Made by a program: the position numbers and the translations under genes. From Hyphomicrobiales bacterium (GTDB lineage Bacteria > Pseudomonadota > Alphaproteobacteria > Rhizobiales > Rhizobiaceae), in NCBI GenBank assembly GCA_900471815.1, contig UICE01000004.1, forward strand, positions 372,001 to 436,000: 64,000 nt of DNA. The letters run 5' to 3'. The notes below the pieces were generated by a model. That model was not told the origin of the DNA. It was given only the letters and a program-made list of their open reading frames with translations, and made no database searches. Below are positions 15,423 through 21,350 of this stretch, piece after piece (the stretch's first letter is position 1; each line of letters opens with the position of its first letter).

Positions 15423-15935
15423 CGACGAGAACGTTGCGAACCTATGGTAAAAACCCGACGCGCTAGGCCTTCAAAGGTGATGTTGGAGAATGGTAACGCC
15501 TCAACGATCAGGGCTCGTGGTGCGAGGCGGCTATCAGCTCTGCTGCGGATAAACGATAGGATCCAGTTGACAGCAATCGACATGCAATAACGCAGGGACT
15601 TCGCTAAGCGCCGCAGTTGGGCCAAGAGAAGGGTAAAAAGGACATTCTCTCGGTGCCGATTCAGCGTTGGGCGACAATCCACAGCTCAGGATGCCTTATT
15701 GGTTAATTTGCGTTAACTATAAAGTTGTTGACGCGACTCGGATATTTTAGCACCCTAGTTACGGTTTTGAGGGGTTTGCGGCAAATTAAACGTTACCGAG
15801 CTCATGCGGTGTTAGTGCTGGCTTACAACGTTATATCTCTATCTGGCGTTACCCCTTTGGTTTTTATGTCGAATCGGCGCATGTTCTGCTTGCGCCGGGA
15901 ATGACCGAACGGACGTACAGGATATTACCTTGACT
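15423..15935. other. Gap upstream of repABC holding its control region
   Basis: From 15423 to about 15690 an 87-codon minus-strand ORF is open but has no recognised motif. From 15700 the DNA becomes AT-rich. A parS-like inverted repeat GTTAATTTGCGTTAAC lies at 15702-15717 (arms of five bases; the repABC parS consensus has GTT...AAC over 16 bases with GC in the centre, which this site lacks). The sequence AACGTT occurs twice, at 15789 and 15827. A TTGACG hexamer near 15727 may be a -35 element. These are candidate RepA/RepB operator or partition sites only. Confidence 0.3.
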
Positions 15936-17210
15936 ATGATGCATGCAGCACAGGCAAATCAACCCGACCCATCCTTGGTGGGCGATGCTTCTTTGCCTGT
16001 TGTTCTGCCAGCCGACAGGGCAATCGCTGCCGATGCGGAAATGCTTTCGGCGCAGCTTCAAGCAATGCGCAACCGGCTCTTTCCGCCGACAGCCATGAAG
16101 ACATTGCGCAAGTTCACCAGCGGCGAGGCGGCAAAGCTTATCGGCGTATCGGACGGGTATCTGCGCCAGCTTTCAATTGCAGGTGAAGGGCCGCAACCGG
16201 AGACGGGCAGCGGCGGCCGCAGGCTCTATACGCTTGCCGAGATCAATGCATTGCGCCGCCATCTGTCCGAAGCCGGGGGCGCCAAGGCAAAAACCTATCT
16301 GCCGCATCGCGATCCTGCCGCCAATGAGCACATGCAGGTCATTGCCGTTACCAATTTCAAGGGCGGTTCCGGCAAGACCACGACCAGTGCCCATCTGGCG
16401 CAGCATCTGGCAATGTCCGGTTTCCGTGTGCTTGCCGTCGATCTTGATCCGCAGGCATCAATGTCTGCATTGTTCGGTTATCAACCGGAGCTGGATCTGA
16501 CCGGCAATGATACGCTCTACGGAGCAATCCGCTATGATGGCGAGCGCCGTCCGCTGCGCGATATTATTTGCAAGACCTATTTTGATGGGCTTGATCTCAT
16601 TCCGGGCAATCTGGAATTGCAGGAATTTGAACACACCACGCCGCAAATGCTTGCCGACCGCCAACACGGCGCTGCCCAAACTGTCGAGCAGCAATTGTTC
16701 TTTGCCCGTGTTCAGGCAGCGCTTGATACAGTGTCAGACGATTATGACGTTGTGGTCATAGACTGTCCGCCGCAACTTGGTTTTCTGACGCTATCGGCGC
16801 TTTGCGCTGCAACGTCAGTGCTTGTTACCGTTCATCCGCAAATGCTGGATGTCGCCTCCATGAGCCAGTTCCTGTTCATGACAGCGGATTTGCTTGCGGT
16901 CGTGCGAGAGGCTGGCGGCGAGCTTAATTTCGATTTCATGCGCTATCTGATTACGCGCTTTGAGCCAAATGATGCGCCGCAGCAGCAGATTGCCGGTTTC
17001 CTGCGTTCGCTGTTCGGGGACCGCGTGCTCACCTCATCGGTGGTCAAGTCCACTGCGTTTTCCGATGCAGGTCTTACCAAGCAGACGCTCTACGAAGTAT
17101 CCCGCGACAGCTTCACCCGCGCAACCTATGACCGCGCAATTGAATCGCTGACTTCCGTCAACTCCGAAATCCAGGGCTTGATCTACAAGGCCTGGAAGAG
17201 GCCGGTATGA
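15936..17210 (+). CDS. repA: Plasmid/chromid partition ATPase RepA
   Basis: 424 residues, ParA type. An N-terminal helix-turn-helix (FTSGEAAKLIGVSDGYLRQL, about residues 50-70) is followed by the deviant Walker A motif FKGGSGKTTTS near 143, a VDLDPQAS A-prime motif and a DCPPQLG Walker B motif. RepA with RepB segregates the replicon and represses the operon. ATG 15936 or 15939 may be the start; a TTG at 15930 is also in frame. repB follows after 7 bases, so they are translationally linked. Length and order are standard for repABC replicons of Rhizobiales. Confidence 0.95.
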   Translation: MMHAAQANQPDPSLVGDASLPVVLPADRAIAADAEMLSAQLQAMRNRLFPPTAMKTLRKFTSGEAAKLIGVSDGYLRQLSIAGEGPQPETGSGGRRLYTLAEINALRRHLSEAGGAKAKTYLPHRDPAANEHMQVIAVTNFKGGSGKTTTSAHLAQHLAMSGFRVLAVDLDPQASMSALFGYQPELDLTGNDTLYGAIRYDGERRPLRDIICKTYFDGLDLIPGNLELQEFEHTTPQMLADRQHGAAQTVEQQLFFARVQAALDTVSDDYDVVVIDCPPQLGFLTLSALCAATSVLVTVHPQMLDVASMSQFLFMTADLLAVVREAGGELNFDFMRYLITRFEPNDAPQQQIAGFLRSLFGDRVLTSSVVKSTAFSDAGLTKQTLYEVSRDSFTRATYDRAIESLTSVNSEIQGLIYKAWKRPV

Positions 17211-17217
17211 GGGCGCG

Positions 17218-18288
17218 ATGATGACAGGCAATAATCGCAGGGATCAACTCAAGGCATTGTTCGGAACGGTGGAAAACATTCCCGTACCGGAACAGAAACC
17301 CGTTGAGCCTGTAGCGCAGCCGCTGATCGGCAATGAAGCGCTCAAGCCTCGTGCTGCATCGGGCGCGGTTAAGGCTATGGGGCTTTCGCTCGGCGGCATG
17401 TCCCGTGAAATTGAAGATGCGCGCCGCTTGAAGGAAAGTCTTGAAGGTGTCGAGCGCGTGGTTGAACTTGATCCTGCGCTGGTCGAAACCTCTTTTGTCG
17501 AAGACCGGCTCAGCCATGCGGCAGGGCTCGACGAAGATTTCGAAAATCTCGTTGAAAGCATCCGCCAGAATGGCCAGCAGGTGCCGGTTCTTGTGCGACC
17601 GCATCCGGATAAGCCGGGGCATTATCAGACCGCCTATGGGCATCGCCGCCTGCGTGCTGCCCAGCGCATTGGCAAGCCGGTCAATGCCATTGTGCGTGAA
17701 CTCAGCGATGTCCAGCTGGTATTGGCTCAGGGCAAGGAAAATACCGAGCGCCGCGACCTTTCCTTTATCGAGCGTGCCTTCTTTGCGCGAAATCTTGTTG
17801 AGCGCGGCTTTGAGCGCGGGCTTGTTCAAGACGCCCTGTCGATCGACAAGGCTGAAATGACCCGCTTTCTGCAGGTTGCGGCCGCAGTGCCTTATCCGAT
17901 CGTGCGGGCAATTGGCCCGGCCCCGAAGATTGGCCGTCCACGCTGGGTCAGGTTTGCAGAATTGCTCAAATCCAATGAAGCACAGGCTGTTGCGCTGAAC
18001 GAAATTACGCTTGAGCCTTTTGGAATCGCAGATAGCAATACACGGTTCAATCGTATTTTCGAGCGGTTGCTCAAGCGTGTTGAGCCGGTCGTGCTGGCTC
18101 CGCGCAATGCTGCGCCGAGCGTGGACAAAATAAACACGGGTGCCAAGAAAATTGCACTTTTGGATTCAAGTGGAGGCAGGCAGGTCCTGACCTTCGCCGA
18201 CCATATACCGCAAGGGTTTGCGGCATTTGTATCGGAAGAGCTTGAGGCATTGCTCGCCCGTTACAACAGCCGGACGAATGACAAATAA
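17218..18288 (+). CDS. repB: Plasmid/chromid partition protein RepB (ParB type)
   Basis: 356 residues. The ParB N-terminal domain holds the VLVRPHPDKPG segment and the GHRRLRAAQ motif (about residues 130-150), followed by the helix-turn-helix region containing SIDKAEMTRFL. RepB binds parS and works with RepA in partition. The start has a GAGG overlapping the end of repA. The gene is followed by the 252-base repB-repC spacer with the antisense RNA. Confidence 0.95.
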   Translation: MMTGNNRRDQLKALFGTVENIPVPEQKPVEPVAQPLIGNEALKPRAASGAVKAMGLSLGGMSREIEDARRLKESLEGVERVVELDPALVETSFVEDRLSHAAGLDEDFENLVESIRQNGQQVPVLVRPHPDKPGHYQTAYGHRRLRAAQRIGKPVNAIVRELSDVQLVLAQGKENTERRDLSFIERAFFARNLVERGFERGLVQDALSIDKAEMTRFLQVAAAVPYPIVRAIGPAPKIGRPRWVRFAELLKSNEAQAVALNEITLEPFGIADSNTRFNRIFERLLKRVEPVVLAPRNAAPSVDKINTGAKKIALLDSSGGRQVLTFADHIPQGFAAFVSEELEALLARYNSRTNDK

Positions 18289-18400
18289 CGTGGGACTTAT
18301 CCACGGGGTCAAAAAGCCGGATAGTGTGTGTAAGTGTTAGTACAAGCCGGTTCGTCAGGAGCCGTATAAAGGGACTGAAAGAGAAGGAAGCAACGGCAAG

Positions 18401-18450
18401 AAAAAAGGCCCCCAGAACGTCACCGCCCCGGAAGCCCTCTTCAATGTAGC
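18401..18450 (-). ncRNA. Countertranscribed RNA (ctRNA) of the repABC operon
   Basis: Reading leftward from about 18450, the RNA would fold GGCUUCC (18436-18430) onto GGGGGCC (18413-18407), a seven-pair stem with two G-U pairs, followed by six U (18406-18401), that is an intrinsic terminator. On the plus strand the same arms contain two C-A mismatches, so the hairpin is a minus-strand signal. A TTGACA hexamer (18485-18480 on the minus strand) lies upstream, with the AT-rich TCTAAAAT about 20 bases on; the spacing is longer than ideal. In repABC replicons this RNA controls repC expression and incompatibility. Confidence 0.8.
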
Positions 18451-18453
18451 AAT

Positions 18454-18485
18454 TTTAGAGAATCACTTCCACCCTGACTTGTCAA
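18454..18485 (-). promoter_or_regulatory. Promoter of the ctRNA
   Basis: A perfect TTGACA -35 hexamer reads leftward at 18485-18480. The best -10 candidates (TCTAAA or TAAAAT within TCTCTAAAAT) are 20-23 bases away, wider than the usual 17, so the precise -10 is unsure. Confidence 0.5.
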
Positions 18486-18518
18486 GAGTCGGACGCGTTC
18501 CGGCATACCTTTTCATTG

Positions 18519-18531
18519 CCTCAAATTGAGG
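18519..18531 (+). promoter_or_regulatory. Inverted repeat covering the repC ribosome-binding site
   Basis: CCTCAA A TTGAGG is a perfect inverted repeat whose right arm contains the repC Shine-Dalgarno sequence GAGG, nine bases before the ATG. Folding would hide the site; in known repABC systems the repC leader folds this way when the ctRNA is bound. The four-to-six pair hairpin is short and would be weak alone. Confidence 0.5.
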
Positions 18532-18540
18532 TGAAGAAAC

Positions 18541-19848
18541 ATGACCGATCGTTTTGCAACGTCGCCATTTGGCGGACGATCGCTGTCGCACGCCATTTTT
18601 GCAGTGCAGGAAAAGACAGCGCGAGCGAGAGAAAAACTGAACGAAACCGGCGGAAGTCAGCCGGAAAAATGGGCGCTTTTACGCTCATTAACCGAGGCGC
18701 GCGCAGCGTTTTTCCTTTCAGACCGTACGATTGCCGTTCTGGAAGCGCTGCTCAGTTTCTACCCGGAAACCATGCTTGATGGCGCAGCGCCATTGATCGT
18801 CTTTCCGTCCAATGCAGAGCTGTCGCTACGCACACGCGGCATGTCTTCCGCGACAATTCGCCGGCATCTGGCGGCATTGGTCGAGACGGGACTGATTATC
18901 CGCCGCGATAGCCCAAACGGCAAACGTTATGCCCGGCGTGGCGAAACCGGCGAGATCGAGCACGCGTTCGGCTTTGATCTGTCACCTTTGGCGCTGCGTG
19001 CCGACGAAATCGAAGCCCATGCGGTTCAGGCACGCGATCTGGCGCGGGCAATCCACCGCGTTCGCAGCGAGATCACCATTCATCTGCGAGATATCTCCAA
19101 AACCATCCATGCGGGTCTTGGCGAGGAGCGGGCAGGCGACTGGATGGGATATGCGGATGAGCTTGCAGCTTTGTCCGGACGGGTAAGCAGGCATTTGCCG
19201 CTCGAGACGCTACAGATACGCTGTGACAGCCTGGCAAAGCTTCGCACGAAGGTCGAAAATGCCTATCTGGATACATTATCAGACAAAGAAATGAGCGGCA
19301 CTGACTCTTCTTTTGAGCGCCATATTCAGAATTCAAATATAGACCCCAATTTTGAAAGGGCCCAAGAAAAGGGCCAGAGGCAAAACGGTGAGCCCGTACC
19401 GGTAGACAATATGCCTGGACGAACAGTCGCAATGACGAAGATGCGGCAAAGGCTTGATAGCGCCCGTCGAACTGTAAAAGCCACCGGACCCGTGGATGAT
19501 TGGCCGAAGCTGGAAACAAAATCGATCCCCATGCCGCTGGATGCTGTGCTGTCCGCCTGTCCGCAAATTCGCGATTATGCCCGAAACGGCATTGAGGACT
19601 GGCGCGATCTGATGCAAACGGCAGGATTGGTCCGCTCGATGCTTGGCGTTTCGCCCGATGCCTGGGAAAGGGCGCGTGACGCCATGGGCGATATCAATGC
19701 TTCCATCACGATTGCTGCCATTTTGGAACGTGTGGGTGAAATCCGCTCCCCCGGCGGTTATTTGAGAGCTTTGACCGACCGGGCCGAGATTGGGCAGTAT
19801 TCGGTCATTCCGGTGATCAAGGCATTGAATGGCGAGGGACGAGCTTGA
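18541..19848 (+). CDS. repC: Replication initiator RepC
   Basis: 435 residues of the RepC family. The N-terminal part has the conserved GGRSLSHA start and a winged helix with SSATIRRHLAALVETGLI (about residues 100-120); the C-terminal domain contains the conserved WERARDAMGDINASITIAAILERVGEIRSPGGYLR region (shortened here: residues about 375-410). RepC opens the origin, which in this family lies inside repC. An AT-rich tract at about 19270-19370, unlike the flanking coding sequence, is the probable site. Its expression should be limited by the ctRNA. Confidence 0.95.
   Translation: MTDRFATSPFGGRSLSHAIFAVQEKTARAREKLNETGGSQPEKWALLRSLTEARAAFFLSDRTIAVLEALLSFYPETMLDGAAPLIVFPSNAELSLRTRGMSSATIRRHLAALVETGLIIRRDSPNGKRYARRGETGEIEHAFGFDLSPLALRADEIEAHAVQARDLARAIHRVRSEITIHLRDISKTIHAGLGEERAGDWMGYADELAALSGRVSRHLPLETLQIRCDSLAKLRTKVENAYLDTLSDKEMSGTDSSFERHIQNSNIDPNFERAQEKGQRQNGEPVPVDNMPGRTVAMTKMRQRLDSARRTVKATGPVDDWPKLETKSIPMPLDAVLSACPQIRDYARNGIEDWRDLMQTAGLVRSMLGVSPDAWERARDAMGDINASITIAAILERVGEIRSPGGYLRALTDRAEIGQYSVIPVIKALNGEGRA
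19270..19370 (+). other. AT-rich tract inside repC, candidate oriV
   Basis: The tract includes TTCAGAATTCAAATATAGAC and nearby A/T runs, markedly richer in A and T than the rest of repC. In experimentally studied repABC replicons oriV lies in such a tract in the middle of repC. The assignment here is by position and composition only. Confidence 0.5.
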
Positions 19849-21134: not shown

Positions 21135-21157
21135 AAAAAAAGCTCCGTCAGGAGCTT
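21135..21157 (-). terminator. Attenuator terminator before the acetolactate synthase-like gene
   Basis: On the minus strand AAGCTCC TGAC GGAGCTT forms a seven-pair hairpin directly followed by seven T, about 70 bases before the gene start and 33 bases after the leader peptide stop. This is an intrinsic terminator in a leader, as in ilv attenuators. Confidence 0.8.
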
Positions 21158-21163
21158 GTTTGC

Positions 21164-21212
21164 CGCGCATGGGTGCTAATGCCGGATGGTCAAACCATCC
21201 TGCCCATGCGCG
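21164..21212 (-). promoter_or_regulatory. Alternative RNA structures of the attenuator
   Basis: CGCGCATGGG (21164-21173) and CCCATGCGCG (21203-21212) are perfect ten-base complements, enclosing a second perfect hairpin GGATGGT CAA ACCATCC (21184-21200) that includes the leader stop codon. Pausing of a ribosome in the leader peptide would cover the outer arm near 21203-21212 and change which hairpins form upstream of the terminator. The exact antiterminator pairing was not established. Confidence 0.6.
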
Positions 21213-21246
21213 ATCCCACCACCAGAATAACCATTGCAGCTTTCAT
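21190..21246 (-). CDS. Leader peptide with Val/Ile/Leu run (attenuation control peptide)
   Basis: A 19-codon ORF, below usual gene-finder limits, encodes MKAAMVILVVGSRMGRMV. The block Val-Ile-Leu-Val-Val is what is expected of a leader peptide for branched-chain amino acid biosynthesis, where shortage of the charged tRNAs stalls the ribosome. It is placed 182 bases before the acetolactate synthase-like gene, on the same strand, and is followed by nested hairpins and an intrinsic terminator. The ribosome-binding site is weak (TCGGG). Confidence 0.75.
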   Translation of the reverse strand: MKAAMVILVVGSRMGRMV

Positions 21247-21350
21247 AACCCGATTCAGTAACTGGAATTGTTTGCGTGGTCAATACAATACACAGCGCAA
21301 GAAAAAGGGCGCCGAAGCGCCCCAATTCCTCAATCCGTTGAATGTTCCGA

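Follow-up and report, generated by a model that had tools for sequence, protein, structure and literature searches.

Attenuation of ilv genes in α-proteobacteria has been published: passages of PMC4117421 describe attenuation of Caulobacter ilvBN (Tarleton 1994), an α-proteobacterial ilvB leader peptide is mentioned in a passage of PMC1273637 with reference to Vitreschak 2004, and according to part of the review PMC6123439 these genes are preceded by putative leader peptides and terminators in Gram-negatives at large. In Sinorhizobium meliloti, the trp attenuator gives rise to a trans-acting sRNA, rnTrpL, and to a functional peptide, according to sections of PMC7143759 and PMC10117765.

The leader described here, located in a 64-kb window (the whole stretch of DNA that was analysed), resembles the α-proteobacterial ilv attenuators, as outlined in those passages on Caulobacter ilvBN, in having a short Val/Ile/Leu ORF, hairpins and a terminator before acetolactate synthase genes. 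It differs from them in that the gene under its control looks non-working, and in that no classical antiterminator was found in its RNA family, Atu_C8. With the S. meliloti trp attenuator (rnTrpL/peTrpL) it shares a leader peptide on a leaderless RNA (perhaps leaderless in the window) and a terminated leader that is an sRNA, as given in sections of PMC10117765 and PMC7143759; the amino acid and the operon are different, and trans action is reported for S. meliloti. The attenuator kind itself is already known, in agreement with the preliminary description of this DNA, which had stated that ilv operons use such leaders, and the window element is a new copy of it. What is unusual is that the attenuator, whole and strongly conserved, precedes a relative of acetolactate synthase that is itself conserved and apparently lacks catalytic activity, and that leaders of this family are also placed before transporters.

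The cmscan analysis assigned the leader to Rfam family RF02502 (Atu_C8; gathering score 50), covering positions 1-122 of the 122 of the model with E = 7.5e-23 for the 64-kb window, and this is the sole match above a gathering score within the window. The regulatory codons of the leader ORF, Val-Ile-Leu-Val-Val, occupy codons 6-10, and its stop codon spans the loop of stem B. The T run of the terminator lies at 21141-21135, the first two T being part of the stem. Of 20000 mononucleotide shuffles of the leader, 48 contained a comparable ORF with at least five V/I/L codons in a row, the stems being uncounted; together with the full-length RF02502 match, this argues against a chance origin of the leader anatomy. 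The 18-residue ORF with its Val-Ile-Leu-Val-Val codons, the nested arms of 10 and 7 bases and the terminator with seven T were thus recovered base for base as first described, whereas the presence of this RNA family in Rfam had been missed.

Upstream of the leader a −10 element was not recognisable, and the consensus promoter scan called no promoter there; as judged from the position of the −35-like element, the leader mRNA is possibly leaderless. The terminator-like hairpin located 3′ of the upstream gene would set the leader apart from the substrate-binding-protein operon. Coordinates of all these features are given in Table 1.

Table 1. Features of the locus, in positions of the window
Feature	Position	Strand	Remarks
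repA, repB, repC	15930-19848	directly convergent with the shortened gene	likeness to annotated plasmids
Shortened acetolactate synthase paralogue, 379 aa	19925..21064	-	ATG 21064, stop 19927-19925
Atu_C8 (RF02502) RNA, ilv-type attenuator leader, second copy of the genome	21125..21244	-	cmscan 108.2 bits
Intrinsic terminator, 7 bp stem, 4-base loop, seven T	21135..21157	-	hairpin 21157-21140
Stem A 3′ arm, 10 bases, RNA CCCATGCGCG	21164..21173	-	pairs with CGCGCATGGG
Stem B, inner 7 bp hairpin	21184..21200	-	arms 21200-21194 and 21190-21184
Leader peptide ORF MKAAMVILVVGSRMGRMV, 18 codons and stop TGA	21190..21246	-	ATG 21246-21244, TGA 21192-21190
Stem A 5′ arm, 10 bases, RNA CGCGCATGGG	21203..21212	-	nested outer arm
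−35-like TTGACC	21278..21283	-	TTGAC there kept in all 21 aligned leaders
Terminator-like hairpin 3′ of upstream substrate-binding-protein gene	21306..21323	-	would separate leader and upstream operon

The domain analysis of the shortened paralogue revealed Pfam matches to TPP_enzyme_N (residues 14-130) and TPP_enzyme_C (245-375) with no match between them, so the claimed loss of the central domain of the enzyme is confirmed. The protein is made up of a PYR domain (about 14-180), a short, fast-evolving linker and a PP domain (about 231-379). Alignment with the full-length paralogue of the related genome G003 showed that about 222 residues are missing, the central domain being absent, and the C-terminal tail is also gone. 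The shortened protein scores 394.4 bits with TIGR00118 (cut-off 538.35) and 519.8 bits with NF006581 (cut-off 974), as compared to 753.5 and 1063.5 bits, respectively, for the G003 paralogue. Its best family matches are thus those of the acetolactate synthase large subunit, with which it shares the PYR and PP domains, and from which it differs in lying below both curated cut-offs, in the absence of the central domain and in a changed metal-binding motif. The latter is the metal/cofactor motif GD...NN of the PP domain: GDAS, present in all 17 full-length rows of the alignment, is replaced by DESS in the window and by DASS in the related genome G002, and the NN is kept. The HEQ of the PYR domain, with its catalytic glutamate, is retained as H60-E61-Q62 and is invariant over the 17 full-length rows. 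The shortened protein is not classed here as an acetolactate synthase and is apparently non-catalytic. No truncated acetolactate synthase pseudoenzyme was found described in the open-licence papers searched.

The first Atu_C8 copy of the same genome (C12:458437) precedes a full-length acetolactate synthase of 600 aa and ilvH. The canonical large subunit reaches 1216.3 bits with NF006581 (cut-off 974) and 800.1 bits with TIGR00118, and the small subunit 215.8 bits (cut-off 119). The preliminary description was right in seeing here a leader of the type of branched-chain amino acid attenuators, with a defective gene resembling acetolactate synthase behind it, and was incomplete in that the element is itself a paralogous copy, the working ilv operon with its own leader copy lying elsewhere.

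Two Atu_C8 copies occur in 8 of the 20 genomes of the genus. The second precedes a full-length paralogue, ilvI2, in G003, G012, G015 and G016, the shortened gene in G000 (the window's genome) and G002, and an MFS transporter in G004 and G008. In G003, G015 and G016, ilvI2 lies beyond an ABC-kdu-GntR cluster at whose other end repC begins; the shortened gene of G000 and G002 is placed between repC and the cluster, and none of these neighbours was present in the stretch of G012 examined. It seems that the shortened gene has ended up next to the replication module of the replicon. A search of six loci found no ilvH near ilvI2 or the shortened gene. At loci L052, L060 and L062, ilvI2 is full-length and has its own Atu_C8 leader, with no ilvH nearby; ilvI2 of L052 is followed by a GntR/FCD regulator and a PLP enzyme of Cys/Met metabolism, the PLP enzyme being present in L060 and L062 as well.

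The best-covered plasmid records are those of Phyllobacterium, at about 78% DNA identity, and the gene order of these plasmids is that of the window (repABC, amino acid ABC transporter, kduD, kduI and GntR regulator), which suggests a Phyllobacterium-like host, apparently a soil bacterium associated with plants. The Brucella/Ochrobactrum kinship assumed earlier did not hold, since the nearest plasmid records look Phyllobacterium, a genus assignment made from that level of identity. The interval between repC and the transporter in two annotated Phyllobacterium plasmids has no room for the shortened gene, or is taken by another gene. In plasmid p_1 of Phyllobacterium sp. 628, repC is annotated as two overlapping pieces (L069:4805-6152).

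Selection on the shortened gene was elucidated by comparing G000 with G002, which carries the orthologue at the same place beside repC. Synonymous sites differ by 67% and non-synonymous sites by 16%, with a dN/dS of 0.111 (bootstrap 0.072-0.162; 190 usable of 200 resamplings), dS being near saturation. Among the parts of the gene, the PYR domain displays the lowest dN/dS (0.046), and the linker is saturated. There is no stop in either species over the 371 aligned codons. The two leaders are identical at 119 of 122 positions (97.5%), the spacer with the ribosome-binding region at 52 of 59 (88%), the gene at 804 of 1119 (71.8%) and the stretch 3′ of the gene at 32 of 72. Out of 208 columns invariant in the 17 full-length proteins, 25 are changed in both shortened proteins, 13 by identical and 12 by different changes, and the GD of the metal-binding motif is among these 25. 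These losses are heavier in the PP domain (19/88) than in the PYR domain (6/115). In the tree, the two shortened rows share a common branch with a support of 100/100, both being flagged as long branches whose joining may be an artefact; with this caution, the common derived changes and the common branch indicate that the loss of the motif predates the split of G000 and G002.

The orthologue in a relative, the near-identity of the leaders, the dN/dS of 0.11 and the common derived residues together therefore suggest that the gene probably encodes a retained pseudoenzyme and is not a dying gene, the former being favoured by about four to one. We read the locus, with a probability of roughly 0.7, as a second copy of an ilv attenuator before a protein that is predicted to be non-catalytic but selected. 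A non-catalytic protein under leader control had been one of two proposals of the preliminary description, and of the readings considered it fits the dN/dS and the conservation of the leader best.

A decaying pseudogene with a leftover leader, i.e. a duplicated ilvI that lost its domains and whose low dN/dS is a memory of earlier selection, is considered unlikely. The deletion junctions of G000 and G002 are not identical, so that erosion continued after the split or happened partly in parallel, and this, like the saturated linker and the loss of both the cofactor motif and the C-terminal tail, would be in line with decay. The gene is also the fastest-evolving of the four usable neighbouring genes compared (dN/dS 0.115 vs repC 0.071, kduI 0.024 and substrate-binding protein 0.007; GntR was left out), and the canonical synthase pair, at 0.011, is far below it. 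Furthermore, the shortened gene was detected in only 2 of 394 genomes, including that of the window, at a strict E-value and with four candidates scored per genome, owing to which diverged copies could be missed. No match over 80% of its length was found in 72,556 plasmid records, and a search of named genomes gave only five full-length, distant acetolactate synthases. However, the motif loss is common to both species, and yet their frames are open and their leaders nearly unchanged. When neutral drift to this divergence was simulated (0.83 changes per site, half of dS), none of 1000 frames stayed open, and the low dN/dS of the PYR domain likewise argues against decay.

The other early proposal was that the leader itself is the useful product, the second Atu_C8 giving a trans-acting sRNA and/or the 18-residue peptide and the gene mattering little; to this we attach a small chance. 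The leader is indeed far better conserved in DNA than the gene, Rfam describes Atu_C8 as an sRNA, Atu_C8 leaders are also located before unrelated transporters, and rnTrpL with its functional peptide is a precedent, as far as the sections of PMC7143759 and PMC10117765 go. A cis attenuator would, however, show the same conservation of the leader, and the high identity extends to the spacer with the ribosome-binding region; the purifying selection on the PYR domain also speaks for the gene.

The comparison across relatives bears on the function of the family. RF02502 was detected in 290 of the 297 genomes sampled from the bacterial family of the host, above the cut-off in 283 of them, and in none of the 14 control genomes. 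Eighty leaders (21 + 59) were examined, and as two are identical, the covariation set comprises 79 distinct leaders. Of these leaders, 75 are followed by a full-length acetolactate synthase, 2 by the shortened gene and 3 by an MFS transporter. A V/I/L run was recorded by script in 79 of the 80 leaders, with a length of 3 in one, 4 in 27, 5 in 48, 6 in two and 7 in one, which makes at least four in 78; the 80th leader has its ORF from an earlier ATG. The conservation of the codon run and the compensatory changes in the stems, both put forward earlier as checks, are evident in this set. Stem A is paired in 95.7% of the cells as compared to 86.2% with shuffled partners, with double changes in 8 of 10 pairs; the corresponding values are 88.8 and 75.5% for stem B, with 6 of 7 pairs, and 96.9 and 95.7% for the terminator stem, with 4 of 7 pairs. 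An all-pairs covariation scan also ranked pairs of B and A at the top, the two strongest being in stem B.

The position before a full-length synthase, the V/I/L runs and the covariation of the stems therefore identify Atu_C8 as an acetolactate synthase leader in almost all of the cases examined. The structure line of Rfam has the same two stems and the same terminator; the family is named there only "Rhizobiales sRNA", whereas most members read are ilv leaders. The window's copy departs from most members in being a second copy and in preceding the shortened gene. No link of Atu_C8 to ilv was found in the open-licence papers searched, and the comparison suggests what a family that Rfam lists simply as sRNA may do.

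In a classical attenuator, stalling of the ribosome has to allow a structure with which the terminator is incompatible. Eight of the 80 leaders were folded under constraint, with a ribosome placed over the first regulatory codon, the last one or the stop codon, and in every position the terminator kept a probability of 0.72-1.00. Partial transcripts ending in the terminator loop were folded for 79 leaders, and the first 30 were read. A candidate antiterminator (CAGGA/UCCUG with GUUUG/CAAGC) occurred among these 30 only in the two shortened-gene leaders, and was rejected, its two helices being paired at 69.7 and 58.7% over the 79 leaders, no better than shuffles. The all-pairs scan yielded no other helix. 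As neither folds, partial transcripts, candidate pairing nor covariation scan gave a mutually exclusive antiterminator, we infer the read-through on starvation from the regulatory codons, from the presence of a terminator and from what is published on related leaders. This result would also suit a structured sRNA that is no attenuator and whose V/I/L ORF is incidental, an explanation that is scarcely credible in view of the V/I/L runs of at least four in 78 of 80 leaders, the full-length synthase behind 75 of them, and the Caulobacter ilv attenuation and α-proteobacterial ilvB leader peptide reported in passages of PMC4117421 and PMC1273637.

For an ilv attenuator before a selected pseudoenzyme, the following course can be proposed from the anatomy and from known attenuators. 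The promoter would give a short transcript starting at or just before the leader ATG. With charged Val/Ile/Leu tRNA in plenty, the 18-codon peptide would be finished and transcription would terminate at the T run to give an sRNA about 110 nt long. Under a shortage of charged tRNA, the ribosome would stall at codons 6-10, the A/B hairpins would be remodelled and the polymerase would read into the gene. The product made on starvation would then be a pseudoenzyme, a diverged paralogue of the large subunit that has lost its central domain as well as the PP metal-binding motif and retains a well-conserved PYR domain.

In acetolactate synthase two subunits build the active site together, one contributing its PYR domain and the other its PP domain, and lending of PYR to a partner would fit the heavier losses in the PP domain. 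It is tentatively suggested that the shortened protein might act via its PYR domain, for example by pairing with intact IlvI and altering its assembly, activity or feedback. A more elaborate and rather doubtful version is that the starvation-induced pseudoenzyme pairs with IlvI such that its PYR domain completes one active site, the other being shut down by its dead PP domain, so that the enzyme is retuned as the pathway switches on, and that Atu_C8, being portable and placed before an MFS gene in other genera, defines a small starvation regulon and not a single operon. The locus would represent a small case of a metabolic pseudoenzyme under the amino-acid control of its parent enzyme. A whole attenuator can evidently be duplicated and kept before other genes, viz. 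a pseudoenzyme, an MFS transporter or an ABC exporter.

Two Atu_C8 matches were recorded in 13 of the 297 genomes. Behind one of the two matches there is a second synthase or the shortened gene in four of them (G000, G002, G015 and G072), an MFS transporter in seven (G170, G224, G235, G247, G262, G290 and G324, the last at 30.5 bits, under the cut-off) and an ABC exporter in one (G309). The gene behind the second leader of G309 encodes ABC_membrane and ABC_tran domains (L147:1141-2760). A match in G221 (L152, 29.6 bits) was taken as chance, its ORF holding only Ile-Ile-Ile with no long ORF behind it.

Together with G004 and G008, this makes nine genomes, from six genera, in which the leader precedes an MFS gene; the match in one of the nine is below the Rfam cut-off. 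The arrangement possibly reflects a branched-chain amino acid starvation regulon beyond ilv. Nothing on an Atu_C8 leader before an MFS gene was found in the open-licence papers searched. The loci concerned (L055, L057, L091, L145, L146, L148, L149, L150 and L151) encode V/I/L-rich peptides. When five of the MFS proteins were scanned with the NCBIfam models, Bcr/CflA efflux (TIGR00710) came closest, with scores above the cut-off in two of the five. Among 17 relatives of the MFS protein in the 297 genomes, six have Atu_C8 above the cut-off and two more (G324 and G213) have a similar arm pair and T run, the other nine being without. The MFS relative of G182, which has no ilv-type leader, carries a TPP riboswitch upstream (RF00059, 74.4 bits, L160:1241-1356); acetolactate synthase is a TPP enzyme.
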